A stretch of DNA of 64,000 bases from Ceratodon purpureus (taxonomy: Eukaryota > Streptophyta > Bryopsida > Pseudoditrichales > Ditrichaceae): positions 1,685,852 to 1,749,851 of the forward strand of contig CM026426.1 in the NCBI GenBank assembly GCA_014871385.1, written 5' to 3'. The position numbers and the translations under genes were made by a program. Positions 42,271 to 60,899 of this stretch are shown here, one piece after another. Every line of letters starts with the position of its first letter. The stretch's first letter is position 1. The notes under the pieces are model-generated. The model was not told where the DNA came from. It saw only the letters and a program-made list of their open reading frames with translations, and ran no database searches.

Positions 42271-43133
42271 TTTCGTTGTCTACTAGACTAGAGTGTGAGT
42301 TTGGGTCTCAAGACAAGATATTTTGGAAGTCACTGAAGAGATGATGACGCAACGACAAAAGTACACGAAGAAAGGTAAAAACATTCCACACGGGCTTGGT
42401 CGGAGGGGACCGAGACTCTCAGCGGCTATGAAGGAGGGGTCTTGGAAGCGTGGCTGCAAGTGTGCCATTTATGTGAGATGGGTGTTTTATCTCCGAGACG
42501 TTGTACAGATTGTCCTTCAAAATCCTTGCCACACGAATGGTGAAGGACTGATTGTGCACGGTATGGTGAAGGATGGCGAGAGGTCTCGCTTCACATCCAA
42601 CATGTCTCCCGAGACAAGAGCATTTGTGGAAGAGAACCTGTGTCTCGGTGTCTTGATTGCGAAGATTAAAAGCATGCACATGAAATTGGTGTTGAAACTG
42701 CGGGCTTAGGGCGCCCCTCCCTCCCGGAATCACTTCATATAAGACTGGAACATCCGCAACATAGCGGTGAAGGTGAATCAGGCTGTGTACCAAAAGGACG
42801 AGAACGACGTTGAATTGGTCCGCATGTGGATTCAAGCAAATCGAGACATTGTGTTCTACTATCAGGAACTGAACTCTAGCCTTGTTCCGGGATCTTTAAC
42901 GAGTGACAACATGCCATTTGTTATAGGCATTCAAACTAATTTTATGTTCCAAATAATGCTTGAGCACGGCCAAAATAGTGCCGTCTCGATTGATGCAACG
43001 TTTGGTACAAACGAGAAGAAGGTAAGCTATTATTCGGTCAGGTATCAAGATGGTAGGAAAAACAGGTTTTTGTGTCTCGTAGATAGGCAAGACAGATCTT
43101 TACATGTGCTAAGATCTTTTCAATGCAGTTTCC

Positions 43134-43142
43134 ACTATACAC
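43134..43142. repeat. Target-site duplication of MULE-2, left copy
   Basis: ACTATACAC, identical to 58860-58868. Nine bases is the length typical of Mutator-like elements. Confidence 0.93.
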
Positions 43143-43265
43143 GGGGAAAGTTCGTATGTGAGCGGAGAGCGTAGAGCGGAGAGCGGAGAGCATAGAATGG
43201 AGAGCACAGAATTGACAATTAGCAAAATTTTTAAAAGCAAAGTAGACCCTATAATTGTGGGAAAT
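43143..43265 (+). repeat. MULE-2 left terminal inverted repeat
   Basis: It starts GGGGAAAG, then GTATGTGAGCGGAGAGCG and repeated GAGCGGAGAGC units to about 43213. Weaker matching continues inward (GACCCTATAATTGTGG at about 43246), paired with GACCCTATAACCGTGG on the complement of the right end. Confidence 0.88.
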
Positions 43266-43545
43266 TACTAAATTAAGGCTTGATTTTGACACTTTTTTTA
43301 GAAAAAGAGTATATTACCGTGGAAATCAGGGTTATCTCTGGTATGAATTTATTACGTTTGTTCTCTTAGATACAAATTAGGGCTGATGTCATGATGACGT
43401 CATGCATATATTTTGTTAGATTTGTCATGGGTTTAGGCAAGATACAATGATCAGGCGTTAAGTTTTAGATCAAACAAATAATTCTTTCGTAGGATTATGT
43501 AAATGCACAAGGAAAAAAACAAATTTGAAAGAACATAAAGGAGGC

Positions 43546-44502
43546 AAGGTTTCAAAACTTCCTGGAATATTTCAAAATTCGTGTATAATATCTTAACTGC
43601 TGAAACCAAGATATACCTTGTTAGAGTCCTTGTCTTCATCAAAGATTACTCTGTCTACCTAGGCAACGAAGCATCTTCATTTGAGTGATACAAGTAGGAG
43701 ATTTTTCATCATGAAACAGCACTTGGTAAGCAAGGTTCTAGAGAAGGAGGTCACTCTTGGTTTCTTTAGCTTGTTTAGGGGTGGCGTATTAGGATAGTGA
43801 CACGGTCCTTGGCATTCTGTGCTGTATGCGAAGGTAGCGTAGGAGTTCGGGGGGGTCAATCTGCAAGCTTCCGTGGAACGTTTTAAGACTACAACAATTT
43901 AGTGTGTTGCGCGATGCCGAAGGTGTGTAATGCGAGATCGAGGAGGACGAGAGCGGCTGTAGGCTTGCCTCCAAAGGCACCGGCGAGTTATGAGGAGCTG
44001 CGGCCGTGGCTGCTGGAGGTGGAGCGCGCCAGGGAACGAGGCATGGACCTGCCACCGTTTAGGCACATCGGAAGCCTCCATGTTGGTGAAGGTGAATGGC
44101 GTTGGACAGTGCTTTGTACCAATGAGCTTCTCCGTATTATGGAGTTGTCTCTAATCCCGTATCCCTTGCTATCGAACGTCGATGAGAATCCAGTTGTTCA
44201 GCTGCCCGAAGTGATCATATCGGATGGCGAAACTTGCTGGTTTGATATGGACAAGAGTTGGACTGTATATCCTCCGAAAGATTAGTACTGTGAAGTCTAG
44301 TGGGGTGTTCGAATACATTCCTTTAGATTTGGTCCCTTATTGGATCTAGATACGAGTATTCCAGCACGATGGTTTAAGATAATTTAGACGATTCTAGGAA
44401 TAAGACAACTCGAAACCAACTAAAAGAAATGGTCTTAAAAGTTCGTGGAATATTTCAGAGTTCGTGTACAATAATGGAGTAGCAGAAACCAAGATGTACA
44501 CC
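43546..44502. repeat. Imperfect ~72-base direct duplication
   Basis: Bases 43546-43616 and 44430-44502 share GGAATATTTCA, TTCGTGTA and GAAACCAAGAT in the same order. They flank the 127-residue frame at 43902-44285. Confidence 0.65.
43902..44285 (+). CDS. Hypothetical 127-residue protein of MULE-2
   Basis: An open frame starting MCCAMPKVCNARSRRTR with a basic N-terminus, then YEELRPWLLEVERARERG and VGEGEWRWTVLCTNELLRIM, ending WTVYPPKD. The residue mix and codon use look like a real protein. It is not recognised. It lies between the left end and the 3' end of the minus-strand gene, and could be a small accessory protein or a captured exon. Confidence 0.5.
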   Translation: MCCAMPKVCNARSRRTRAAVGLPPKAPASYEELRPWLLEVERARERGMDLPPFRHIGSLHVGEGEWRWTVLCTNELLRIMELSLIPYPLLSNVDENPVVQLPEVIISDGETCWFDMDKSWTVYPPKD

Positions 44503-44799
44503 AAGTCAAGAGTAGGTAACATGGCTATGGAAATGTGGGATTTTGAATGATTAAAAAATAAATTACAGCGCAATTAAAATTTTGAGCATTTCTTTTGTAA
44601 CATTTCATTCTTCATATTATATTTTGAGCATTACAGTTGTGACATTCCATCCTTTACCAACACGGAGAGGAATTGGAAATAAGAATCATACCAAATTTAG
44701 GTTTAGGGTAGTAGAGTAGACGAAGGATTACGCAATGAACTCCAATTAAATCAAATCAAATCAAATGAAAACAACAGTAGACCGAAGCCTCCTTCAAAC

Positions 44800-47700
44800 T
44801 CACAACATGCTACAGTCGCTACTTTCACTCTCAGAACTAGATGACTCTGAATCTCCTTCTACCGCCTCGTCATCGACGAACAGAAGGGCCCTGGGATCAA
44901 AAGTAGTTGGCCGACTAGGAACATATGTTAGGGCTCCAGATTGAAACGCCTGTGCTAAGCCCTCTGCGTAGTCCGGAAGTATGAAAGGCTGAATCGGGCT
45001 GGAATGAAGACGCCACGATGGAGTAGACACTGCTCTTGGCCCACGTGGCGGTGTTGCTGAAACTACTCTGCAATAGAGAACCGATTGTGGTTACATCGAG
45101 TACGTAGAGCTGCAAAGAGAAGTAATGCTTGGATAATTTGAACAAAGAATAGAAGACTTACACCACTTATCAGGCCTTGGTCTCTTTGGAGGGGCTTCGC
45201 CTGCTGCTGCCGGCCTAGGATGCTTAGGAGGGCCCATGGCGGATGGTTTGAGAAGGGCGTTGAATATGGCTTCGTCCTCCTCAAAAGCGAGAATGTGACG
45301 ACCAATAGCCTGGGAAGCCTTGATGGAGGCCCCTGAAACTCGGAGAGAAACAAAGAAATGAGAAACTGTGGGAAAAACAAGAGGAATAATTAAGCAGAGA
45401 TATGCATGAATAGTTACCTGTTCCAGCATTCCAATCAAGAACTATGTCGCTGGGCTTCGACAGCTCCTCAATTATGCCCTGCATCATCTCAGGGGATTTC
45501 TCCCTTGGGCCTCTCCACGGCACCTCCCCATTCATGAGCTGCGATTCCACATCGGTGAAGTTGAAAATAGCATCACTCTCGGTAATGTTGAGGAGCCCAT
45601 GTATCAGCTCGGATTTCTTCGTCTGGAAGGAGAAAATACTGCCTCTACGAACGTAGACGCGAATCCAGAACCGCATAGTCTGCAGTCAAGCAAAACTACT
45701 GAGTAAAATTAAGCGGAAGGGTTATCAGTAAGTAAAGAGAAGGGTATGTTTAGGGAAAGTACCAAGTTCTCGGGGTTCGTAGGAGAAGTAAGGCCGAGGA
45801 CATTGACGCCCCACCAGTCCTTGAAAAGCACGTAGTCACCACCAGCAGCTTCTTCGTCGATATCCTTAGCCAGCTTCTGATCAGTGTTGTAGATGAGGCA
45901 GATGGCACCATCTTTCTGCAGGTAATTATCTGCAAAATGGAAGATGTCGAACACATAATCCTTCTCGCGAGAGTTCCAAGGCGGAATACTCGTGGGGGGA
46001 ACGGAAACGGATGGGACCGGAAGATTCTCAGGGATGTCGGCAATGATCAAGTCGACTCCCAGATGGTCCTCTTGTTTGCACTGGTCCGGAACTCTGTTTT
46101 TGCGGCCTGCTCCAAACTTGAGGAAACAAGAAAGCAGAGTTAGTAACTACATAGCGAGTAGAGGTGGCAGAATCCATTGAATGTCAAAATATCGGAACAT
46201 ACCTTGCGAATGAAGTCTTGAGTCTTGATCCAATCCGGGTCGCCACCTTTTCTCTCCTGTCTCTTATTTCGCCGCAACATGGAATCCACAGATGAGTTGA
46301 AAACAGAAACATGTGTGGAAATCGAAGCTCCAGCGGAAGAAGTTGTTTGAGGATATAGTTTGGCCTTCCTCTGCTCAAGGAGACCTCTGGTGATCTCCGA
46401 AGCACTGATCGAGGAAGGACTCGGTGAAGAAGTTGAAGAAGGCTTCGTAACCACATTACCTGGAGAGGGCTCTGGTGCCGTCTGCTCTGGAGCGGATGAC
46501 GCCGCACCAGTTTGCTGTGAAGCTTGTGAATGTGATCGCAAAGATTTCAGACGCCGAGCTCTCCCTTTCTTCGGTGGAGGAGCCGATGATTGGTCTTCAG
46601 GGCCTTTGTCATCTTCAGGACCATCCACCGTCTCTTCGACCACCACCTCACCCCCATCGTGTAAAGTCTTGACGTTCACCTCCGAGTCAATTGTGAAACC
46701 ACGATAGCAATCAAGATACTAGCATCCAGCATCCAAATGAGGAGCTTTGTACCTTTTCAACTGCTGGGGAGAATAGATACACTGGTCCGAGGTTGTTTGC
46801 GTCCAAGCACGGAAGTAGTTGGGGAGCTGCTGGACGGTGATGGCCCCCTTCAAAAGAAGCTCTCGCTTGAAGTACCTAAGGGATGAAATTTAGAAGGTTA
46901 GTAGCATAGAAAGCTATAGCAAATAATAATATGCAAATGCAAAACAGTTACGTAACATACCGGAAAATAACCCGTTTGACAACTTCAGCAGTTCCAGGGA
47001 ATTTAGCAAAGTTGGACTTCTTGTCGAAGGGCTTCTCAGCCTTCTTTCCAATGAACGTAGGGAAGGCCTTGTCCCATAACATAATACGTGAACTCTCGAC
47101 ATAGTCGCCCGGCTGTTGGACCTCAGGACATGCCCTCCAATCGATCTTGAGGTTCTCCGCCTTAAAAATGTCCTCGACCTCGTTGACGACGGCTTCCTCC
47201 AACTGTAATACAGAATTCAAATAAGTACCAATGAGAAAAGAATTCAGAAAGCATGTTTTAATTGGTAAGGCATATTTTGAAACCATACCCCAGCCCAGAA
47301 TGAAGCCCTGTTCAACCAAGGGTCGAAATCAGTATCCTTGAATCCGGGCGGTGGAAATCTGTAAGATATTCTGGAACTCAGAGATGAGTTCCACCACCTC
47401 AGCCACCGAACCTTGTATTTGGGCTCAACGGCCGCCGGACAGATCTTCTGGAGCTTATCGAGGGACATCTCCGGTTTAGAGTTTAGACTGTAATGCCGAT
47501 TGATCTGCCAGGTATATAGAAGTATTAGAAAATATTATATCAAAACATTGTAACAATTCCAAATACTTAACTGAAATTCAATGAAGGTGTTACCTCATTT
47601 AGGAAGTCATCTCCGTTTCTGGGATTTGCAATTGCCAAGTACTTGGTGAAGTCCTTATTCTTAATGGAGTCCACCATTTTCTCAGTCCCGTCATTCATGA

Positions 47701-50700
47701 CATCCCAAACCGCAGATGCAGTCTGTTCATCCGCCGGCGTCTTCTCCTTGTAGGCCTTAGCTGCTTCATCCGAGGCCACAGCAATTTCCCGCTGTAGAAG
47801 GATGACTAATTTTTAGAGAATTCATAAATGAACGAAATAAAACTTTCAAAGAATGAGTGGAGATAAAACGACCGAAGACAGAGAGGAGTTATAACTTACT
47901 CGGTAAAGAAATGCGATGAAAACTCGAGTAGTCAAGGGAAACCATGACGGGTTCGGTGGCTTGTTCTTCAAACAAGCATCGTATTCTTCAGGGTTCAGGA
48001 GGTCCTTGAACTCCTCCAGCTTCATCATACCGAATGAGCGGATTCGAAACAATTTTGCTGGGAGATTACTCTTCACGTGGTCATTCTCAGTCGACCTGAA
48101 TATCAATTTAGTAAGTAAGTGTAAAGAAATATGATAGAAAAAGACTTCAAATGGATAACAAATAGTAAAGAGTTTTAAACGTACCAGTTGATGTCGTGCA
48201 TGGCATGCAAGAGATTGCCCACATGGCCACGGGGGTCAAGTACAATGCAATGCACTGAGATGTGCCAGGATGGGTCGTCCTGATGATGCTTGTTGATATG
48301 CCGGAGCCATGCGGAGAGGCGATGGTTACCCTCCCAGACAAAAAACATCTTGTGCGAGAACTGAATCAAGTCCTCGTCACCAGAGATATCATCATCAAAA
48401 CGATCACTCGCTGCCCTCCAGAAAGGGCTCCAAGTGGCCATGACCTCCGCCGTCACATTCTTCGTTTGCTCTTCAGTGTTGTACATGGAGATGTACATGA
48501 CGCGGTCCCCATCTCTGTATCCCTTAACAAACTCCCGCTCCAAGTGTTGTACCCCCATTTCACCCACTGGTCGAACCTTGGCCATTGGGATCATCCTGCA
48601 TAGGGGCACAAGCATTCTCGACTTATGCGTGGGTTTGATCCTGAGGTTGTTGATGACAGCGTTGGAGTCCAGCTTGTATTGTATACGATGCTGCAATTCT
48701 CCTTCTATAGCAGTCTTCAAGTCAGTTGGGCAAGATGGTTTTGCCAACACATCTTGTGTTTGAGTAACCTGCCAAGAGGTGTGCAGATTAAGAGAGGAAT
48801 CACAATCAAAGGAAGTCATGCAAAGAATACAAGTATGTAAAAGAAAGTAACAATATATCTTCATACTGTCATTTCTTTTGTAACAAATCAATCGTCATCT
48901 GCGCTTGGGGGAACTATCTACGTGATGCTCGACTATAGTACTCCTTAGACTGTCTACAGTTCCAGTGACGGCGCCTCCTCCAAAACCGCCTGGTTTGCTG
49001 AACTGGGCACGGCAGAATTGCCGGTAGAGCAAACACCACATGGGCTGGCCTTCTGACTCTGATAGGCGAGGAAGGAGAGGGTGGAGACATAGGCGGTGAG
49101 TCCTCTAGAGGGGAAGTGGGCATGTAGGCCAGCGACGTAGGCTCATACACTGGCGAGGTGGGCAAGTACACGGGAGAAGTAGGCATGTACTGTGGAGAGT
49201 GGACCTCAAAAGGTCCACTATCTCCAACTACAGGGTTGTCTACATCACAGGTACAATAAGGCTGATCAAATGAATCTAAGAGATCAGAAACATTGATAAC
49301 TGAAATAGGGGAGGTCGCGGACATCTCAGGAGCATCTGAATATACCTAGAGTAGAAGAAATGAATAGAGGGTTATATACCACTTTAAAAATATATGTAAG
49401 CAATGAATCAAAGAACAGAAGTCAAGTACGTAAAACTAGTAACGTACCTCGGTCTCAGCTGGAGTTGGGACTTCACGTTGACTTCCCATATTATCCTCAG
49501 AAGATTCCTAATTCATACACAAAGAAATTGACTATGAATGAAAAAACAACTATAAAGACAATTAAATGTGAATAATCATCCATCAAACCTCCATTCACTA
49601 AAAAGGATTAACACAATACTAAAACAAATAAATCCAGAAGCTCAACATAAATTACAACTACACCTTACTAATTTAACGCATAAAAAGAAATGCTCGAGGG
49701 GGAGCCCGAAGCTACTGTCGTCAACGACAGTAGCAGGAGCCTCCTCATTTTCCTTTTTTTTAATTTTGCAAAGTGCTTCATCGGCCCACCCCAAGGGGGC
49801 GAGCCTCGGCAGCGGGCATGCTCGAGGGGGAGCCCCAAGCTACTGTCGTCAACGACAGTAGCACGAGCCTCCTCATTTTTCTCTTTCTTTTTTTTGGAAA
49901 AGTGCTTCATCGGCACACCCCAAGGGGGCGAGCCTCGGCAGCGGGCATGCTCGAGGGGGAGCCCCAAGCTACTGTCGTCAACGACAGTAGCACGAGCCTC
50001 CTCATTTTCCTTTTTTTTAATTTTGAAAAGTGCTTCATCGGCCCACCCCAAGGGGGCGAGCCTCGGCAGCGGGCATGCTCGAGGGGGAGCCCCAAGCTAC
50101 TGTCGTCAACGACAGTAGCAGGAGCCTCCTCATTTTCCTTTTTTTTTATTTTGAAAAGTGCTTCATCGGCCCACCCCAAGGGGCGAGCCTCGGCAGCGGG
50201 CATGCTCGAGGGGGAGCCCCAAGCTACTGTCATCAACGACAGTAGCAGGAGCCTCCTCATAATCCTTTTTTTTTATTTTGAAAAATGCTTCATCGGCCCA
50301 CCCCAAGGGGGCGAGCCTCGGCAGCGGGCATGCTCGAGGGGGAGCCCCAAGCTACTGTCGTCAACGACAGTAGCACGAGCCTCCTCATTATCCTTTTTTT
50401 TAATTTTGGAAAATGCTTCATCGGCCCACCCCAAGGGGGCGAGCCTCGGCCGCGGGCATGCTCGAGGGGCAGCCCCATGCTACTGTCGTCAACGACAGTA
50501 GCAGGAGCCTCCTCATTTTCCTCTTTCTTTTTTTTTGAAAAGTGCTTCATCGGCCCACCCCAAGGGGGCGAGCCTCGGCAGCGGGCATGCTCGAGGGGGA
50601 GCCCCAAGCTACTGTCGTCAATGACAGTAGGTGGAGCCTCCTCATTATCCTTTTTTTTAATTTTGGAAAATGCTTCATCGGCCCACCCCAAGGGGGCGAG

Positions 50701-52929
50701 CCTCGGCCGCGGGCATGCTCGAGGGGGAGCCCCATGCTACTGTCGTCAACGACAGTAGCAGGAGCCTCCTCATTTTCCTCTTTCTTTTTTTTTGAAAAAT
50801 GCTTCATCGGCCCACCCCAAGGGGGCGAGCCTCGGCAGCGGGCATGCTCGAGGGGGAGCCCCAAGCTACTGTCGTCAACGACAGTAGCAGGAGCCTCCTC
50901 ATAATCCTTTTTTTTAATTTTGAAAAATGCTTCATCGGCCCACCCCAAGGGGACGAGCCTCGGCAGCGGGCATGCTCGAGGAGGAGCCCCAAGCTACTAT
51001 CGTCAACGACAGTAGCACGAGCCTCCTCATTATCCTTTTTTTTAATTTTGAAAAGTGCTTCATTGGCCCACCCCAAGGGGTGAGCCTCGGCCGCGGGCAT
51101 GCTCGAGGGGCAGCCCCAAGCTACTGTCGTCAACGACAATAGCAGGAGCCTCCTCATTTTCCTTTTTTTTAATTTTGAAAAGTGCTTCATCGGCCCACCC
51201 CAAGGGGTGAGCCTCGGCCGCGGGCATGCTCGAGGGGCAGCCCCAAGCTACTGTCGTCAACGACAGTAGCGGGAGCCTCCTCATATTCCTATTTTTGATT
51301 TTGAAAAATGCTTCATTGGCCCACCCCAAGGGGTGATGCTCGGCCGCGGGCATGCTCGAGGGGGAGCCTGTCTCTCTCCCTAACTCTCTCCCTGTCCATC
51401 TCCCCGCGGCCACTCCCTGTCCCTCTCCCTTACCCTCCCCCTGCCCATCTCTCTCGCGGCTATTCCCTGTCCCTCTCCCTTACCCTCTCCCTGCCCATCT
51501 CCCTCGTGACTATTCGCTGTCCCTCTCCCTAACCCACTCCCTGTCCATCTCCCTCGCGGCCACTCCGTGTCCCTCTCCCTAACTCTCTTCGTGTCCATCT
51601 CCCCGCGGCCTCTCCCTGTCCCTCTCCCTAATCCACTACGCAATCCAATCCCCATCCCGCACCCAATTCAAAACCCACAACCCGAACTTAGAACCCGAAG
51701 CAAACAATCAACCCACAACCCGAACTTCCAACCCAAAACCCACGATCCAAAGCTACAACAAAAACCCCAAGCAGCAACCTTGACTCGCATTGCACCCATG
51801 TCAATCCGCAAAGAGGTTCCAATCCCCATAATCCTCAACACCCAGCACTTAGAATAATCATCTCATAATCATTATTTGCCACATCCCCATCAATCCGTAC
51901 GACAAAATCCGTACCCCAAGCATTCAAACCGCATTACACCAAGCAATCATACCTCATCTCCATCTTCCCGTTCTCCCTCCTCATCGTCCTTATCAGTTCT
52001 CTCCTGCTCCTCAGGAAACCCAGGCGGCGCGAGCTGCTCCTCTGCTCCTCCGAGCTCCTCCACCGCCATCTCGACAACAGCCTCCTCCGCGGCCTCTGCA
52101 CCGACCTCCGCCTGCTCCTCACCTGCTCTCAGAAGCCCTGCCCTCACCTGCTCCTCCCTCGCAGCCATTGCAAACCCTCCTTCTCCTGCTCCCAATATCT
52201 CGATTCTCGCTCTCCTCGCGATGGCAGCCAAATGGTCGAGTTCACGACCCTCTTCAGAAGGTGAGTCAAAAGTCCGATCTCCCTCTACCCTTATCCTTTG
52301 GTTACTCTACACATTTATTTTAAACATTTACAGTCGTGAGTGCTACCGTATGTGAGTTTAAGCAGATGCTTCGGTACTTTAGATTGATTCATTGTCAATA
52401 GAAATGCGTCTACTCTTTAGAATGTTGAATTAATTTAAACAATGCACAGCAGTCAAGACGGTGTAAAAATGCTTACCGTTCCGGAGTTAAAATGTAAATT
52501 TGTTTGAGATCCCAACTCCCCTGTCAAAATTTCATTGAAGCTAATAGACGGTTGCGGTGACTCAACTCTTTGACTACAATTAAAAACTAATTCTTCCGTC
52601 ATGGCCTCAAGTGCTTCTCCACTTAAACCTACCTCCTGCTCGTGATTACTGACTACGGTGTTCTCTAAATACTCTTCCTTGTCCTCCACTATAGAGTCTA
52701 GAATGACTTTGCGAATGCTAGAAAATTTCAAGGCTAATGGCAGACCTGCTCCTCTCCTTTTCAGTGGTGCACTCAAATGGTCACCTTCCAAAACTACCTT
52801 CTTACGTGACTCTCTCCTCTTCCTCGCTCTCCTATCCGTAAAATCTGTACGACCTGATTTTCGTCTACATTTAGGAGTAACATAAGTGGAGGGAGATGGC
52901 CCTCCACTCTGCTTCATGTGTCTAACCAA
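44800..52929 (-). CDS. ParB-like / beta-class DNA methyltransferase-like gene of MULE-2
   Basis: About fifteen exons on the minus strand, all open. Likely upstream exons: 52929-52479 (ends in GTAAGC) and about 52260-51953 (acidic, ends in GTATGA). Then 49495-49448 (MGSQREVPTPAETE), 49345 onward with four YxPTSPx heptads (49189-49106), about 48774-48184 with MIPMAKVRPV and EGNHRLSAW (48308-48334, ParB-like), and eight or more short exons. Near 46119-45763 lies VDLIIADIPEN, where DPPY (motif IV) is expected. At 45676-45427 come PWRGPREKSP and DIVLDWNAGTG (motif I), and at 45341 onward IGRHILAFEEDEAIF. Motif IV before motif I marks the beta class, and ParB plus this fold is known from bacterial and phage proteins. 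DIPE in place of DPPY suggests lost or altered catalysis. It ends with SSDCSML at 44800. Confidence 0.75.
49106..49189 (-). other. RNA polymerase II CTD-like heptads in the ParB/methyltransferase-like protein
   Basis: Four units in a row: YMPTSPV, YLPTSPV, YEPTSLA, YMPTSPL. They match YSPTSPS except mainly at the second position. A SP/PP-rich stretch follows. Confidence 0.85.
49688..51365. repeat. 13-copy, 128-base minisatellite with a hairpin in each unit
   Basis: Units start at about 49711, 49839, 49968, 50096, 50223, 50351, 50479, 50608, 50736, 50865, 50993, 51120 and 51247, with a period of 127-129. Each holds two 11-base arms, GCTACTGTCGT and its complement, around a CA centre, then GGAGCCTCCTCAT, a T-rich tract, GTGCTTCATCGGCCCACCCC and GGGCATGCTCGAGGGG. 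Arms are conserved better than the T-tract. The array lies in the predicted first long intron (51952-49496) of the minus-strand gene. The open frames seen in it on both strands are by-products of the repeat. Confidence 0.95.
51366..51640. repeat. CT-rich tandem repeat
   Basis: About five imperfect units built from CTCCCTGTCCATCTCCC and GCGGCCACTCC. It adjoins the hairpin array without a gap, in the same intron. Confidence 0.9.
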
Positions 52930-53464
52930 AGGAAGAACTCTCTCACAAAAAGGCTCTCTTGAGAACTTCCTCCCGGCTTAAATACCTATAACGTACAGCC
53001 CAAAAAAGATATAGAATCTTAACCATTGACACATTTCCTACCCTCTCTATATTAAGAGTAACAATAACAATTCTATAAATGAAGTAAAATTTAAAATATC
53101 AACCTTTTAATAATAAATCTAAATCCAAGCACACTATAAATTAAAAGATCTGATTCAAGCACTTCAAAGCATGCTTATTTTCATATTTATTGTTTTAAAT
53201 GTACAATTAAAATGACGGCTCATTCTAATCTTATAAAACAGCATGACAAATAAAATCCGCTTCACGATTCAAATTGTTAAAGTCTAGTTCTAAAATTCTA
53301 TCGTCATATACTTAGACCTGCAAAAAGTGGCATTGTAATTAGTTAGCGCCGTCTCTCTTAAATCTTACATTTGTTACCTAACAGAATGAATCATTCTCCA
53401 GCTGTTCACATAGACATTCCAACCTGAATAAAATGATCAACAGCGATGCATCATTCCTCTCACT
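52930..53464. promoter_or_regulatory. Spacer between divergent MULE-2 genes
   Basis: About 0.5 kb, AT-rich, between the presumed start of the minus-strand ParB/methyltransferase-like gene and the plus-strand transposase. It probably holds both promoters. No specific box can be named with confidence. Confidence 0.4.
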
Positions 53465-56400
53465 TTGATCTCACGATATCGCTTCGCTACTTCACTCACT
53501 CTTCTACTCTCTGCGTCTGCAAGCATGGGGATGCTCTGTCTGTATGCCCAAGGCATGGGCATCCCTCTTAGGTTTTGCGTAGATGACGATGGTCTAGCTA
53601 CAGTTTCCTCTCTTCGCCTTAGTCTTAGATTCCAATTCCGTGAGGATTCTATCAGTATAGAGGAGGAGATCTTTGATGACGTTACTGCGGAGGTTACCCA
53701 CACCCTCGGGCAACCTTCAGTGAGAGATGAAAACAATATGTTGCAGTGGAGACTCTTCCCTGGGTCCTATAGAGTCTATGGTCTTACTGATTCTCTGATG
53801 GCTGCATCCACTGAGATCCTCACCCCCCGCCGCTCTTCTACTTGCACAATTCAGACTCCCTTACCTCGTGATGTCAAGATCAAAGTCGAGCCCGGTACTG
53901 AGACTTCCGATGTAGAAAAACCTCCTCCTCCGTCCGTCATATCCCTCTCCTCTGATGATGAATTCAGTCCCGTCAAGTTGGTGCTTAAGGTCCACGCTGA
54001 TGCTCCTCCTTCCAATGTCTCCCCTCCATTGTCCCAAGTCACAGTTAGCATTGTTCCGCTCCTTAAGGAGATTGCTAAGACGCGTGGGTCCAAAAACATT
54101 TTGAAGAAGATAGACTATTCCACTATTAGACACGAGAGAGTAGAGTACTTGCCTGCGAAGTTTGATGGTCCGGTTCTTTTTAAGTTGCCACCAGCTGCTG
54201 TAGGATCCTCTAAGCTCGCTGCCAAGTCAATGCAGGGAATGGACAAACGATACGACGGACACTTGTGGACCAAGACCATCACAACAAACATCAAAAACGA
54301 CTTCGGACTCTCTTTTCGAAGTTCCACCAGCGTCGGATGGCTGCGTTGCACGAACGAGGAGTGTGACTTCCTCAAGCGTGTTCCCAAGATCTTCGAGGTT
54401 AACGAGACTGAGTTCGAAGGCTCTACCCTGCAAGCTTTTCTCATGGATCAGCCTCCTCCATCTGACTCCACGCTAGTGTGCAAGGTATGTAAAGTACCTC
54501 CATCATGTGTAGCTACATGCGAGGCTAAGATTTATTACGTTGTGGGCAAACCTAATCAGACTAGAGCTTGTATTCACATAGGAACATATGATCATCCTAT
54601 GAAAGTAGGAGACTACAGAGACTCTAAAGCAGAGATTAGTAGCTTAATAGAAGAGCAGGTAGAGATGAACAACAAAGCAACAAAGAGCGCCGTTGTCCTG
54701 GAGGCGAGCAAACTCCTCATCGGGAGCTACCTTCTACAGCCCGAGGATGCACCACCGAGGAAGCTGACGATGGAGGAGCTGGTTCCTATTTTGGATCGTT
54801 GCAAAGACATGGCGTCACCAAACATCCGCAACAAAGTCGCCACCTTCAAAAAATTCAAAAGGTACGGAATCATGGACGGTATTACCAAGCTCCGTGGAAA
54901 CAGTCTCTGGGCGTATGTCCAGGAGAATAGGTTTCCTGGTCAGGGATCTATACGTGACAAAGTCTTCGTCTTGAAAATGTCGGAGGTCGGGCCGGGAAGT
55001 GGTGTCGACTTGGTCAGCCGAATGCAAGCTGGTGGAGATTTGGAGAACGCATGGATCATGTTCAACCATGTTAAACGCGTGAAAGATCGGTCGACGATGG
55101 CGTGCCATATGTACGACGCCACCTACTGCCGCGTGATGACAATCGCCACTTGCGACATGCAGTCCGAAGACACGGAGGCCCAGCTCGTCTTCTGGAAAAA
55201 CCTCAACCTGGTCATGAAGATCAATGGCGTTGCAGCGCCGAACTTCAAGGGGTTCATGGCGGATAACGCACATGCGAATTGGAATGCAGTGCGAATCCTT
55301 TACGGCAATGGCAACAAAGAAGACCCAATGGAGGACCGGGAGAGGTCGTGCTTGTTCCACTGGACTCAGAACATGGTGGCGTATACGCAGAAGCACTTCC
55401 CCGAAGAACTCTGGGAACAGCACATGAAGATGTGCACTCAGTACAAGAATGCGACCAGCATGGCAGAGGCGGAAACTCTGTACCACGCGTTGCGAGCATG
55501 GTGGGCATCCACCGGGGTCGTTGGCGAGAGCGGGCTCATTAAACTCGATCAGTGGCTGTCATTCTGGCACCACCGCTTCCACCAGTGGGGGGGATTCACG
55601 ACCGAGGTATTATCTCTGCACTCTGTTTTGATGTTTTTGATACTGGTTTCCTAGCCCTAACCTACAAAACTCTAATCCGTGAATCTAACGTCACCTACTG
55701 TCAAATCTGCAGAAATTCACGAAAGAAGAACTCACAGAGATGCCCACCTGTAACCTCGCCGAAACAGTTCACAACAAGTGGCTCCAAGCTTCTGGAAACA
55801 ACGAGAACGACCTCTACGTTGCTACCGTGGACGATTTCGTTCGGGCTTTTCTTCAGGTTGTTAACTACTACCAGTTCCTCAAAGGTGACGTCGGCGGAAC
55901 AGGACCGTCCAAGAAGGAACTCACGCTCCGGATGGCTGAACGCAACGCGAAGAAATGGGGAAATCCTACACTGCTCGATAAGCCCATGCTCGATATGCCA
56001 GGCGCGGATGAGTTCTGCACCCGCCAACCTATCATGCCTGGAGCGGAAGTCTTCGGTTCACAGAAGCGAAAAGCCGACGTCCCCATCGGAGCTGACGAGG
56101 AGTCTCATCGCCCGGACAAGACAAACTTCTCACGCCCAAGAGGCCCAAGACGTGCCGTCAGGGCTCGCCCTATGCAGATGCCCGTCATTGTGGAAGACGA
56201 CTCCGAACACGACACCGAGGTAGAAGGTACCCAATCTCCTGCCCAGGAAGTTGATTCCCCTTTACCTTCACCTGTGAACAAGGGCGGCATTCGCCATGTC
56301 AACGCGGTTGAAGAAACCAAGGTCGACGTGAACGAGTGGCACATTTCCAGACTTCACAAACTTTCTGCGAAGTGCTGCTTGGCCCAAAGAGCTGAAACGA

Positions 56401-57206
56401 AGAAGAAGTGCACTGAGAGAATCGTCAGGGGGCCCCATTGCACAGCTGCACCGACCTACACTGGGCTTTGGACTAACTATCGCAGGAACACAGTCGAGAA
56501 GACAGAGTTCTTCTTCTGCTCCGACGATATTGAGCGCTGCGTGAAAGGCTCTAAGCGCAAGTGGGTAGCGCATTACTCAAAGGACTAGGAATTCCCCTCC
56601 ATTCCAGAGGTCTAGCCAATGAAACTAGGTACTAACCTAAAACTGACTGAGATTCTTGCCCTCGAAGCAGCAGGCTTTCAACTTCCGCCGAAGAAACCGG
56701 TCTCCCCAAGACGCCTCTTCTCCTCTGCCCCGCCCCCTACAAATCTCAGCTCGGTGTCAGTCCCTGCAGACGCTGACCGCTACCCAGGCAAGAGAGACGG
56801 CAAGATGGTGAAGCGCACTGCCAGTCGTCCCAATCCGGCGCAGCGACTCTCCATGGGCTCCTCCGAGTCACTCAAAGCGCGCCTCCGTTCCGTCACCATG
56901 ATACGTGAGCCGGGCCACGGTTGCATCATTGGGCTGGATTCGGGCGTCGCTCCACACATCACACGGTACCAGATTACTATCAGTTCTTACCCTGGTTGCA
57001 CTTGTCCTGCATTCCAGAAGACGATGACTACGTTCCGAGGCAGGACTCAGTTCACGTATTGTAAGCACCTTTACTACATACTCTTGAAGGTCTGCAACCG
57101 TGATCCCGAAGCCGAGCTATTCATCCATGCGCCTACCTTTAGCTTCAACGAGGTCAAGCTTCTCCTAGAGAGTGGAATCTTGCGTCACCCCTTGGCGAAG
57201 AAGTAG
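53465..57206 (+). CDS. MULE-2 transposase with SWIM finger
   Basis: Exon 1 is 53465-55606 and exon 2 runs from 55713 (GAG/GTATTA donor, CTGCAG acceptor) to a TAG at 56588. The same frame continues after a second TAG at 56619-57206. Seen: IKVE (residues 139-142, a sumoylation consensus) and VISLSSDDE (158-166, a SUMO-interacting type motif); CTNEECDFLKR and VCKVPPSC cysteine pairs; Asp551 in HMYDATYC; Asp600 in FMADNAHANW; CLFHWTQNM; WLSFWHHRFHQWGGF; Glu731 in NLAETVHNKW. That gives a D-D-E triad with ExxH after the last Glu, as in MULE transposases. The last part has CTCPAF and YCKHLYYILL, a CxC...CxH SWIM zinc finger. It cuts and joins the element ends in the nucleus. Whether the SWIM part is joined by splicing or read-through of TAG is open. 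Confidence 0.85.
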
Positions 57207-57460
57207 GTAGCCCTCCTACTTTAGAACTGCCATTCCCACAATGGCCATTTGTCACGTAGTGAATGATTTTAGTAATATACCATGTACTAAGTCAGCTATT
57301 CAGAAGCTGTATTGACTTTTTCATTATATTAAAGGTTTTGTCGTTCACATTGATTGCATTCTATTTCAATACGTTCTATCTTGAACAAGTGCACTATATA
57401 CCTCGTATACTCTGACATGTACCCTTTATTACAGCAAACATATACTTGTTATTAGATGTC

Positions 57461-57913
57461 CTAATCTTCAAACCTAACACGTTTAGGGTTGCCCACTACA
57501 CTATCAGCAGGATTGCGAACCTCTGACTGTACTACATGACAAACTACATTCGCGTTCACTTTCGTTCCCACACTTGGCAAGTGTCCTTGGTATGAACGTT
57601 TCAGCAATGGCCCACCTCCCCGCCTCCGATTCACTGATTCCCTGGAATAGGTTCCCCTTGGGATCTTTCCAACCTTGGAGTATGCATGAGGTTGCAAAGG
57701 CACATCTGCGTTCTCCTCCAACACTCTGATATCATCCGAATTTTCTGAACGTGGAGGGTCAGCTCTTACATCCGGTTGTACGTCAACATCCGTTGTCAAA
57801 GGACGCCCTTGGCTGTTGGCCATCACCTCTTCTTCGTCCTCGACCTCAACATATGGTTGAAATGGACAAACATCGTCAGCAAGTGATACAACAATATCTC
57901 TAACGTCTTCCAT
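57461..57913 (-). CDS. Hypothetical 150-residue acidic/basic protein of MULE-2
   Basis: An open frame MEDVRDIVVSLADDVCPF, an acidic first half (VEVEDEEEV), and a second half with NRRRGGGPLLKRSYQGHLP and a basic end (NPKRVRFED). The KR-rich, Gly, Leu-Pro-Leu pattern loosely recalls LKRRGAGLPLALK in the exon at 52479-52929, so the two may be related. Not recognised. Confidence 0.45.
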   Translation of the reverse strand: MEDVRDIVVSLADDVCPFQPYVEVEDEEEVMANSQGRPLTTDVDVQPDVRADPPRSENSDDIRVLEENADVPLQPHAYSKVGKIPRGTYSRESVNRRRGGGPLLKRSYQGHLPSVGTKVNANVVCHVVQSEVRNPADSVVGNPKRVRFED

Positions 57914-58111
57914 AACTGCTGTCCCGCACTATGGAAAAGAGCTTCACAAAACACCAACAGAAAAGAGGAAGAGACATACAATAATCCCACCTTAAATATC
58001 CGTGAAGATGATGCTTGGCGCCCTTGAAAATCGGCTTTTCATTGATTTGAAAGTTGTCGTCCTAAAATGAATGAAATAGGATGAGGGTTGAGCAGAAGTC
58101 ATTTAGCATTT

Positions 58112-58144
<33 letters not shown>

Positions 58145-58157
58145 AAATTATAAAAGC

Positions 58158-58192
<35 letters not shown>

Positions 58193-58640
58193 ATTTATAA
58201 AAAACGAAATTAGAAAAATAAAAGTAAACAAAAGGAAAAATAAATATTAAGGTTGAAAAAAATATGAAGGCGATAGAAAAAATAAAAGAGAAAATCAAAT
58301 GAAAGAGAATTAAAGGAAAGGACTCTTTTGACCCCTTTAACAAGATAGATAGAATAATGGAAGTTAATATAAAAAATAAAAGAAATAAAAAAGTTGTAAG
58401 GCATGTAGACTATGGCGGATGAATTCTAGCAATGTTAAGGAAATTAAATGTTACTTGATTCCTTTTAAGAGGTTCAATACCAATACATTTTAAGTAGTAA
58501 TTTGCATATAAATTTGAGGAGATAAGGGGAATTAATGTATGCCTGAACTAGTTTGAAGGAGCTCGAGCATAGTAATTGGTGCACGCTATAAAATTAATCA
58601 CCAAGATTAGAGAAAACGAACTACAAATTCAATGAAAATA
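57914..58640. other. Poly(A)-rich stretch without genes
   Basis: Two long A-runs (about 58119-58141 and 58159-58191) and A-rich DNA inside the right end of MULE-2. Nothing coding is supported. Confidence 0.6.
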
Positions 58641-58859
58641 CTGTAATTAGTCCACGGTTATAGGGTCAATAAAATTACTAAAATTAGTAACTTTCCAAAA
58701 ATATACTAAGAATATTCGAATCTTCTAATTTTATAATTTATTTTTAGTAAAAAATCTGCTATTTTAAGGTTCTGTCCCCCATTCTGTGCTCTCCGCTCTC
58801 CAAATCTGCGCTCACCGCTCTCCGCTCTGCGCTCTCCGCTCACGTACAAGCTACGTCCC
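58640..58859 (-). repeat. MULE-2 right terminal inverted repeat
   Basis: Read on the minus strand it starts GGGACGTAGCTTGTAC, then GTGAGCGGAGAGCG and further GAGCGGAGAGC units, as at the left end, with weaker matching farther in. Confidence 0.88.
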
Positions 58860-58868
58860 ACTATACAC
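58860..58868. repeat. Target-site duplication of MULE-2, right copy
   Basis: ACTATACAC, identical to 43134-43142. The MULE-1 reading frame resumes right after it. Confidence 0.93.
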
Positions 58869-60899
58869 CATGATGATCTTTGACAAATGGCAAAATGGAT
58901 GCCCGGGTGCTTACGTGGTGACGTCTCGCAGTAAGCACTTGGATCTTGCTCTGTTGGTGCTAGCCTTGAAGACCAAAATGGTTGCAGCTCTTCCTGAGTG
59001 GCGTCCAAATTGCTTCATCGTCGACGATGCCCAGGTGGAGATAAACTGCCTCAGGTATTTTTTTTAAACTCTTCCCCTCCAGTGGTTTTTTTTTTAAATT
59101 TATTTTTTGTTCACCCTTCTTCTTTCTTCTTGTTATTATTTATCTTTTATTTTTTTCTTTATTTTTTTTCACCCCTCCTCTTTCTTCTTCTTCTTCATCT
59201 TATTTCGAGACAGATTCTATTTGTTTTTTTTTCACCCTTCTTTGTTCTTCTTGTTTTTATTCCTTCTTTCCATTTTTTTTTAATTATTATTTTTTTAAAT
59301 ATTTTTTAACCCTTCCTCTTTCTTCTTCTTCTTCTTATTCCGAGACAGAGTTTATATGTTTTTTTTCCACCCTTCTTCTTTGTTCTTGTCTTTAATCACT
59401 TTTTATTTATTTATTTTTTCACCCCTCGTCTTTCTTCTTCTTCTTATTCCGAGACAGATTTTCTTTTTCTATTTTCCCACCCTTCTTAATTCCTCTTGTC
59501 TTTAATCCCTTTTTATTTTTATTTTTATTTTTTCACTCTCTTCTTTTCTTTTGATGTTATTCGGTGAGAGATTCTTTATGTTTTTTTGTTTCACTGTTCT
59601 CTTTCTTCTTGTTCTTATTTCCAAGACAGATTCCCTCTTCTGTATTGTCTCGTTCTTTTCCATTCCGAGGCGCAGGCAGATATGGCCCAAATGCTTGGTG
59701 TTTCTCTGCCTATGGCATGTGCCTGAATCATGGCAGAAAAACGCTTGATCCAAAACCAAATGAATCGTCACGTGTGCATGGGCACTTCACGAGCTCGATA
59801 AACTCATTTACCTCTCGAAATCACCTATACCGGGGATGTCATTACTAGAGTATGCGAGACAGAGGTTTTCTTTCATCATAACCAAAGTGTCTGGTGCTAC
59901 GGCGTTCTGGAGCTATGTAAAAACAACGTGGATGAATAAACTTGACATGTGGGTGACAAGTAATTGCAATATCCTACCTGCAAGGTAGGATACAAATGTA
60001 GCAATCGAGTCGTCCCATAGTAACCTGAAGGCAGTGTTAAAAGCATCTCACGGAAGGCTTGTAGGGAGACGTGTGAACTGGCTTATTGATAAATTGACGA
60101 ATGATGTCATAAACGGATACAAATTTAATGCGTACGTGAAAGAAAACGGCTTCAAAGGCAACCGGAAGAGGGAACGTGAGGGAATAAATTCACTTCTACA
60201 AGCCCAAAAGATCCCAAATCACTGCATCTCACTTCCAACCAAAGCTAGAGAACCGGCTTATGTTTGTTCTAGCAAGAGGCCACACCTTTTCTATGCTGTG
60301 CATAATCCCGAGACAAAGCGGGGATGTTGTGATTGCCCTCACTCAATGAAGGGCAATCTGTGCAAACACTAGTTAAAGGTGCTTAGGATGTTGCGTCCTA
60401 ACCTTGCTAAAGGAGACATCGTGAAATGTGTGGGACTCTTTATGGTACGTCTTGAGGCGGTTTACCGCAGCTAGAACAGTTCCCCGAACTACCCGAATTT
60501 GAACCCGAAGTAGAAGCCGAGACAAAACAGGAGCCTTCCCCGAAAACCGTCTTGCTCGAGGCCGAGCGAGAAGGTTCACGTCCCCCCCCCCCCCCCCCCT
60601 ACAAAAAACGAAGACGAGTGTCTCGACGACAGCATCGACCGTCTGGTGCCGCCATCCATGACCGAGTCTCAAAGCACCGTCTTCTGAAGAGGCACTTAGA
60701 GGACAAGCTACGCCCTATGGATGCCAGACACGCTGCTATGGAGCTTCAAATAGCACGAGGTGTGCTTCATTCGGCACAAAGGGAGGATGCACAGTTCATT
60801 GGAAACGACGCAAACGATAGCATGACTCCTCGCCGGCGCCGAGACATTTTAAGTAGCCCTTTCAGCTCCTCTAAGAACACAAGACAACGCCTCTAAATT
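58869..60899 (+). pseudogene. MULE-1 transposase, C-terminal half
   Basis: It resumes with MMIFDKWQNGCPGAYVVTSR and NCFIVDDAQVEINCLR (second catalytic Asp, codon 59023). An intron follows (59055 to about 59675) and then QIWPKCLVFLCLWHVPESW. A frame change and a stop occur near 59748-59985. From 60007 it has NVAIESSHSNLK (third catalytic residue, Glu), RRVNWLIDKLTNDVI, and the SWIM finger CCDCPHSMKGNLCKH at 60325-60369, then a TAG. The Pro- and Arg-rich tail KKRRRVSRRQ continues to 60899. With the N-terminal half it is a typical MULE transposase, now inactive through several stops and the MULE-2 insertion. Confidence 0.88.
59055..59675 (+). repeat. T-rich tandem repeats in a MULE-1 intron
   Basis: Three to four imperfect units of about 110-130 bases, each with CACCCTTCTTC, TTCTTCTTATTCCGAGACAG and a T-run. 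The CGAGAC word is conserved while the rest drifts. Bounded by CAG/GTATTT and GGCGCAG. Confidence 0.8.

Follow-up and report, generated by a model that had tools for sequence, protein, structure and literature searches.

The DNA analysed here is a stretch of 64,000 nucleotides from the moss Ceratodon purpureus (positions 1,685,852 to 1,749,851 of CM026426.1; hereafter the window), part of contig C6 (110.5 Mb) in a searched genome of 362 Mb and 151 contigs. The window contains a DNA transposon of 15,715 bp with inverted ends, an 11-bp target duplication and two divergent genes, one for a transposase and the other for a large accessory protein (Table 1). An earlier interpretation made from the letters alone (the sequence-only reading) had placed an element at 44800..52929; the peptides that it quoted do lie inside a transposon, but the element is larger. 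The left terminal inverted repeat opens with GGGGAAAGTTCGTATGTGAGCGGAGAGCG, and all five left ends that were read, the window's included, start with GGGGAAAGTTCGTA. Homology with a second copy of the element, on contig C1, starts within one base of position 43143, and this C1 copy has CCTGTGTGCCC on each flank, so that the duplication is 11 bp in both of the copies (2/2) in which both ends were read.

Table 1. Features of the transposon in the window, with their coordinates and the observations on which they are based.
Feature	Position	Strand	Basis or remark
Whole element	43143..58857	.	Inverted ends, 11-bp duplication; homology with C1 copy starts within one base
Left target-site duplication CCACTATACAC	43132..43142	.	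11 bp
Right target-site duplication CCACTATACAC	58858..58868	.	11 bp
Left terminal inverted repeat GGGGAAAGTTCGTA...GTGAGCGGAGAGCG	43143..43196	.	Common start in 5 left ends
Right terminal inverted repeat	58805..58857	.	Match to left end
Transposase exon 1	53525..55606	+	64 scored genome copies, window included
Transposase exon 2, SWIM-type finger near 56980-57100	55713..57205	+	TAG at 56586-56588 and 56613-56615 in window copy
Accessory exon 1, MKQSGG..., basic N-terminus	52477..52917	-	Splice sites, phase; 74% identity in C1 copy
Accessory exon 2, acidic, poorly conserved	51953..52306	-	33% in C1 copy
Accessory exon 3	49448..49507	-	Gene model, comparison of copies
Accessory exon 4, as joined to exon 5 by AGA|GT donor	49058..49345	-	Unspliced reading stops at 48914
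Accessory exon 5, ParB-like exon (GNHR)	48185..48768	-	dN/dS 0.14 (28 distinct sequences); family assignment unproven
Accessory exon 6	47900..48095	-	dN/dS 0.07, lowest among nine exons tested
Accessory exon 7	47594..47791	-	Gene model; dN/dS 0.20
Accessory exon 8	47289..47504	-	Gene model; dN/dS 0.17
Accessory exon 9	46961..47202	-	Gene model; dN/dS 0.25
Accessory exon 10	46203..46875	-	In-frame TAG 46719-46721 in window copy; dN/dS 0.27 (10 sequences)
Accessory exon 11, methyltransferase motif IV region, DIPENLPVP replacing DPPY	45763..46116	-	Copies aligned, CcrM alignment; dN/dS 0.43 (20 sequences)
Accessory exon 12, motif I region WNAGTG	45418..45679	-	Pfam scan, copies compared; dN/dS 0.31 (18 sequences)
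Accessory exon 13, remainder of motif I and acidic motif II (AFEEDE)	45162..45332	-	Pfam scan, copies compared; dN/dS 0.35 (17 sequences)
Accessory exon 14, acidic serine-rich C-terminus	44800..45065	-	Gene model
Tandem array, exon 2-3 intron: 13 units x 128 bp, each with dyad CTACTGTC-N6-GACAGTAG or near match	49690..51368	.	
YxPTSPx heptads, RNA polymerase II tail-like	49109..49189	-	RNA_pol_Rpb1_R E 6.1, not significant
Interrupted ZSWIM/MULE-like transposase gene	42743-43131 and 58869-59060		PF21056 E 0.0024, sub-threshold

The transposase gene (53525-57205, plus strand) was found at 64 or more places in the genome, the window included, with the others 94-96% identical; the count is a lower bound, 64 of 2,764 candidates having been scored. 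Exon 1 is free of stops in 63 of the 64 scored copies. When exon 1 was scanned against Pfam with hmmscan, together with part of exon 2, no match to the transposase of Mutator-like elements (MULE, PF10551) appeared, and none of the 93 places in the genome that match PF10551 (150 of 384 candidates scored) falls in the window. A SWIM finger (PF04434) was detected at E 0.0087, its 16.0 bits lying below the cut-off of 19.6. The duplication is within the 9-11 bp that, together with inverted ends, characterise Mutator-like elements. The sequence-only description of the element as Mutator-like is based on the duplication, the inverted ends and the weak SWIM finger; as the transposase lacks a Pfam MULE match, we apply the term to the anatomy of the element and treat its family membership as putative.

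The accessory gene lies on the minus strand, diverging from the transposase gene, and was modelled as 14 exons (52917-44800) with GT-AG introns and matching phases, two of the joints (exons 4-5 and exons 13-14) being picked to preserve the frame. The peptides on which the sequence-only reading was built were all recovered in minus-strand frames of 44800-48894: MIPMAKVRPV, EGNHRLSAW and SWHISVHCIV lie together in exon 5, DLIIADIPEN in exon 11, REKSPEMMQGIIEEL and DIVLDWNAGTG in exon 12 and IGRHILAFEEDEAIF in exon 13. A genome search with the core product of the gene gave at least 275 matches, with about 35 gene copies among the matches listed, at 56-98% identity; this too is a lower bound (38 of 5,660 candidates scored). 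The ratio of nonsynonymous to synonymous substitution (dN/dS; pairwise Nei-Gojobori, pairs with dS 0.05-1.5) ranged from 0.07 to 0.43 over the nine exons covered (5-13), a sign of purifying selection. Stop-bearing sequences were kept in this analysis, with only the stop codons skipped (five copies for exon 5, two each for exons 10 and 11, and one each for exons 6, 8, 9 and 12), and the value for exon 11 was 0.76 on seven close copies before it came to 0.43 with 20. Since the exons recur in the listed copies under purifying selection, we rejected the possibility that the quoted peptides are chance reading frames.

Eight transposase places lie, by coordinates, 6-9 kb from accessory-gene copies and in divergent orientation, the window being the ninth. 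Two transposase copies from outside the list of accessory-gene copies were also opened and both (2/2) carry the accessory gene, which rejects its confinement to the listed elements; it therefore appears to belong regularly to the element, rather than to be a one-off capture. A protein database search with the accessory product returned no match among 7,998 scored candidates, and nothing came of a scan of viral contigs.

The C-terminal part of the accessory protein had been read as a beta-class amino-methyltransferase fold with motif IV ahead of motif I, and profile comparisons bear this out. With PF01555 (N6_N4_Mtase), exons 11-13 of the window scored 32.9 bits, above the cut-off of 26.7, and all five copies scanned at E up to 1 matched it (best 4e-10). 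Methyltransferase models of PHROG and PADLOC matched as well, and those of NCBIfam did so below their cut-offs. A five-copy profile searched against PDB gave DpnA (E 7e-5) and CcrM (E 7e-4), the alignment with CcrM extending over profile positions 18-225 of 234 and placing DIPENL opposite DPPYNL and WNAGTG opposite the later FxGxG, which is the motif order IV before I. Two phage records aligned over 92-96% of the methyltransferase domain at 21-23% identity, but at no better than E 0.4; alignments with better E-values (to 2e-5) took in about 40% of it. By sequence comparison a beta-class DNA amino-methyltransferase fold is thus established in the accessory protein, and so in a eukaryotic DNA transposon.

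Motif IV in exon 11 reads D[IV]PEN in 20 of 21 copies (22 rows, one copy being present twice) and DILEN in the degraded copy L052 (copies of the family carry L numbers). Neither DPPY nor any catalytic (D/N/S)PP(Y/F/W) was found in these 21 copies, all of which have Glu in place of the aromatic residue. The loss of DPPY is therefore a family trait, and the decay of a single copy was rejected as an explanation of DIPE. Motif I takes the forms WNAGTG, FEWSAGTG/FEWSTGTG or WKAGTG; the GTG within it is conserved, as are acidic motif II and the motif IV Asp. Because Glu sits where the catalytic aromatic residue belongs, the accessory protein is probably non-methylating, and the earlier suggestion of poor or no methylation is strengthened.

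The ParB nuclease-like domain that the sequence-only reading placed ahead of the methyltransferase fared differently, since of the two profiles it had named, PF01555 was matched but PF02195 was not. Exon 5 has the order MAKVRPV, helix, VMYISMYN, VWEGNHRL, helix, WHISVHCIV, which resembles that of ParB/sulfiredoxin domains, and EGNHRL is invariant across 14 aligned copies. In Pfam scans of 14 exon 5 copies ParB was not matched even at E 10, the one match being to DUF5397, sub-threshold, in 11 of the 14 (best E 0.023). A PDB search with the exon 5 sequence gave no match, and one with the exon 5 profile gave no ParB chain and a single ribosomal protein (E 0.15). Matches of exon 5 to plasmids and phages by tblastn were at E 4 or worse, and hhalign against four plasmid/phage ParBs (the Vibrio sequence being a partial frame) gave a probability of 0.1 per cent. 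Over the whole genome PF02195 had no matches at E up to 10, while the same profile rings in 11 of 14 control genomes. An AlphaFold2 model of exon 5 made without an alignment had a predicted local distance difference test score (pLDDT) of 39; the strand-helix order is no more than compatible with a ParB/sulfiredoxin fold. What speaks for ParB is thus the GNHR-type motif and the order of strands and helices, a resemblance that leaves membership unproven.

That the ParB-like and methyltransferase parts form one gene, as had been proposed, agrees with the frame-keeping 14-exon model and with a phase-0 GT (AGA|GT) that lies within exon 4 in 24/24 copies, but exon 4, when read on, runs into a stop in every one of the 24 (21 of them share its position, whereas L030, L032 and L038 meet one sooner). 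Changes in exon 4 before the stop are mostly synonymous, the following 140 bases are variable with frame-breaking indels, and the acceptor ahead of exon 5 is conserved. Given this stop, exon 4 can be joined to the ParB-like exon only from an alternative donor within it. Alternative splicing would be the simplest model, with a short protein carrying the YxPTSPx heptads and a long protein carrying the ParB-like and methyltransferase parts. The heptads (YMPTSPV/YLPTSPV/YEPTSLA) recall the consensus of the RNA polymerase II carboxy-terminal domain and vary in number among copies. By eye, the final 75 bases of exon 4 (48914-48990) are less variable at third positions than the adjacent upstream coding sequence, as if they carried a second signal.

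The intron between exons 2 and 3 (2.4 kb) contains a tandem array of palindromic units. The sequence-only reading had missed this array, as it had the conservation across the family and the window copy's nonsense codons. The units of the window carry GCTACTGTCGT-TG-ACGACAGTAGC or a match with one or two changes; in the C1 copy 13 units are arrayed as well, but these are 201 bp long, with a nearly identical dyad. The dyad core, with at most one change, was present in 24 of 25 regions adjoining exon 3, and an array in 17 of 18 regions tested, L030 having none in the stretch covered. In 14 of the 17 arrays the unit-consensus dyad was equalled or beaten by at most 1/100 shuffles, the others being L065 (7/100), L067 (100/100) and L028 (81/100), the last scored on a 98-bp period without the dyad, though the dyad lies in the region, and counted as a miss. 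Units range in length between 86 and 235 bp. When twelve array units were compared outside the dyad, 21 of 66 pairs showed some match, the longest of 49 bases, so that a few of the arrays are related to each other, while most pairs gave nothing at E 0.1.

Among 14 distinct dyads, changes on both sides were found at four of the nine base pairs, a number reached by 0/500 shuffles and by no slid control; this count used one author-chosen dyad per variant and excluded L068 (other spacing), L065, L067 and one-base variants within arrays. Examples of such compensatory changes are CTAC/GTAG to CCTC/GAGG, CCAC/GTGG and CAAG/CTTG. The dyad is therefore kept under compensatory constraint while unit length and sequence turn over. 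Furthermore, the genome has 3,431 sites of the form CTACTGTC-N6-GACAGTAG, against none for the reversed control pattern and about 0.08 expected from base composition. The divergent lineage L051/L068, 75% identical in exon 5, has a different dyad, TGTCTGCT-N5-AGCAGACA. Dyad arrays can also grow into satellite-sized blocks; a run of dyad sites of more than 15 kb (C1:2.4678-2.4829 Mb; L075 from 5271 onward) adjoins one copy of the element, represented by its transposase and accessory exon 1. A GA-rich 12/50-bp tandem repeat (51367-51637) adjoins the window array, and a 38-bp GA-rich repeat that of the C1 copy.

In 9 of 28 regions a single array contains the six central bases of the dyad in either orientation, mostly between similar flanks (L038 excepted), and their orientation differs likewise between the copies L028 and L029. 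As six of the nine regions are near-identical copies, they represent about three array types. Cruciform formation followed by nicking and resolution would produce such spacer inversions, with gene conversion between palindromes as the alternative source.

The window copy has three nonsense codons, one TAG in accessory exon 10 and two in transposase exon 2, where related copies have sense codons at all three positions. It is thus probably dead, and copies free of those three stops exist. It is inserted inside another transposase-like gene, which matches the ZSWIM1-3 RNaseH-like profile below its cut-off (PF21056). Two short open reading frames within the element gave no Pfam match, MPKVCNARSRRTRAAVG... 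on the plus strand at 43887-44285 and MEDVRDIVVSLADD... on the minus strand at 57480-57930 near the right end, the latter with similar sequence in the C1 copy.

We tentatively favour, as a good possibility short of a firm expectation, a reading in which the accessory protein recognises its own element, probably without methylating it, and counters silencing as VANC does, because the anatomy is close to that of VANC: arrayed motifs in the gene's own intron, with repeats that turn over. The moss family would then be a two-gene DNA transposon of Mutator-like anatomy, divergently transcribed, in which gene 1 supplies the transposase and gene 2 a large multi-exon accessory protein that joins a ParB/sulfiredoxin-like motif exon to a C-terminal beta-class methyltransferase fold with D[IV]PE for DPPY. 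We infer that a dimer of this protein would recognise the dyad array in the large intron of its own gene, that its non-catalytic methyltransferase pocket would bind target bases or S-adenosylmethionine (AdoMet), and that host silencing by 5-methylcytosine (5mC) would thereby be kept off the element, as VANC does for Arabidopsis VANDALs.

Several observations weigh against this. It is a guess that the dyads are bound by the accessory protein rather than by a host factor or the transposase; ParB membership failed each profile test run; the methyltransferase exons (dN/dS 0.31-0.43) are under weaker constraint than exon 5 (0.14); and, given the exon 4 stop, the accessory gene may be two transcripts or two genes. 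The divergent L067 array has no detectable dyad and that of L065 is weak (7/100 shuffles as good), while the 2.2 kb examined in each of L066 and L071 is free of arrays. Moreover, the shuffle controls of the dyad ignore kinship between copies, and the same sequences had served to define the pairs.

Other readings share part of this evidence. The accessory protein could be a transposition helper that binds dyads and ends and aids the transposase in cutting or re-inserting, silencing not being its target. Such a standing second gene would suit an abundant, young family (64 scored copies, 63 at 94-96% identity to that of the window), and maize MURB is a second gene of this kind; however, all 13 dyads of the window (allowing up to four mismatches) lie mid-element in the intron array and none at the ends, which share instead the distinct repeat GAGCGGA, and we consider this role rather unlikely. 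Alternatively, the arrays may be independent of gene 2: they could form RNA hairpins in the intron, have a role in splicing or small RNAs, or be a selfish satellite. The 10-bp stem with its 4-base loop could fold as RNA too, and the expansion at C1:2.468-2.483 Mb is large, but G-T/U was seen in one cell of 126, where RNA helices usually have more, and spacers of either orientation stand between the arms, a difference that alters an RNA loop and not a DNA dyad; independence from gene 2 is therefore also on the unlikely side.

An active enzyme that, despite D[IV]PE, methylates A or C of its own element, and so marks it for protection or activation, would account for the conserved GTG of motif I, acidic motif II and Asp of motif IV, and has precedents in passages of PMC5890265 (Dam-like enzymes in DIRS retroelements, DNMTs in retrotransposons) and of PMC8885841 (bdelloid N4CMT, an active captured bacterial enzyme). 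The same passages on N4CMT report that it is inactive once the Ser and Tyr of SPPY are replaced, and with Glu for the aromatic residue of motif IV in 21/21 moss copies we regard continued catalysis as quite doubtful. Another reading that we hold to be distinctly unlikely takes the protein for a captured phage-type ParB-like clamp or nickase joined to a dead methyltransferase, a self-recognition system in which the palindromic arrays within the gene would coevolve with the protein that recognises them, and the ParB-like part would repeatedly invert the spacers by cruciform nicking. Most improbable is a partition system or clamp of ParB type, loading on parS-like dyad arrays and spreading from them or tethering the element: the motif resemblance and the dyad arrays recall phage P1, in which parS lies beside parB, but PF02195 is not recognised, the hhalign probability is as low as given above and no ParA match was present among the element's open reading frames scanned with Pfam (part of them).

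If recognition without methylation and protection from silencing were confirmed, a plant DNA transposon would have recast a methyltransferase fold as a weapon that does not methylate, and the silencing arms race seen with VANC in flowering plants would exist in mosses with a different type of protein and with dyad sites. The family supplies a DPPY-free beta-class methyltransferase fold under selection across copies whose synonymous divergence exceeds 0.5. Its compensatory dyads and inverted spacers offer a ready test of binding and processing factors.

Several components of the moss element have known counterparts. Methyltransferases in eukaryotic retroelements, a captured N4-cytosine (N4C) enzyme and bacterial ParB-methylases are already known: passages of PMC5890265 describe DNMTs in dinoflagellate and charophyte retrotransposons and Dam-like enzymes in DIRS elements, and passages of PMC8885841 the bacterial N4C enzyme captured by bdelloids. 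These are likewise methyltransferases taken up by eukaryotes or their transposons, but N4CMT retains SPPY and the DNMTs are 5mC enzymes, unlike the moss protein, and the passages concerned name no Mutator-like DNA transposon. A DNA transposon with such a methyltransferase-fold gene was not found in the literature, in a search limited to general listings. The moss protein has its fold and motif order in common with CcrM, DpnA and MboIIA (PF01555), and differs from them in D[IV]PE for DPPY and in its motif I variants. The bacterial and phage ParB-methylase fusions described in parts of PMC5512222 (Bce_0392; polyvalent proteins) have a ParB-like motif ahead of an amino-methyltransferase, as in moss; the moss protein is unlike them in being encoded by a spliced eukaryotic gene, in its unproven ParB part, in the lost catalytic motif and in the several hundred residues of unrecognised sequence that separate the two parts.

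The closest likeness in anatomy is to VANDAL21 and VANDAL6 with VANC, which, as passages of PMC5735166 describe, are like the moss element autonomous DNA transposons with an extra gene and fast-evolving tandem motif arrays in introns or other noncoding parts. There, VANC binds short motifs arrayed in tandem in noncoding parts, its own intron included, and causes loss of DNA methylation, and the motif repeats turn over with the VANC protein. The likeness, one of anatomy, is incomplete: the motifs of VANC21 are short and of a single orientation, whereas the moss site is a dyad and the moss protein has a DPPY-less methyltransferase fold. New here is an intron tandem array whose dyad persists, with compensatory changes, amid the turnover of its units.

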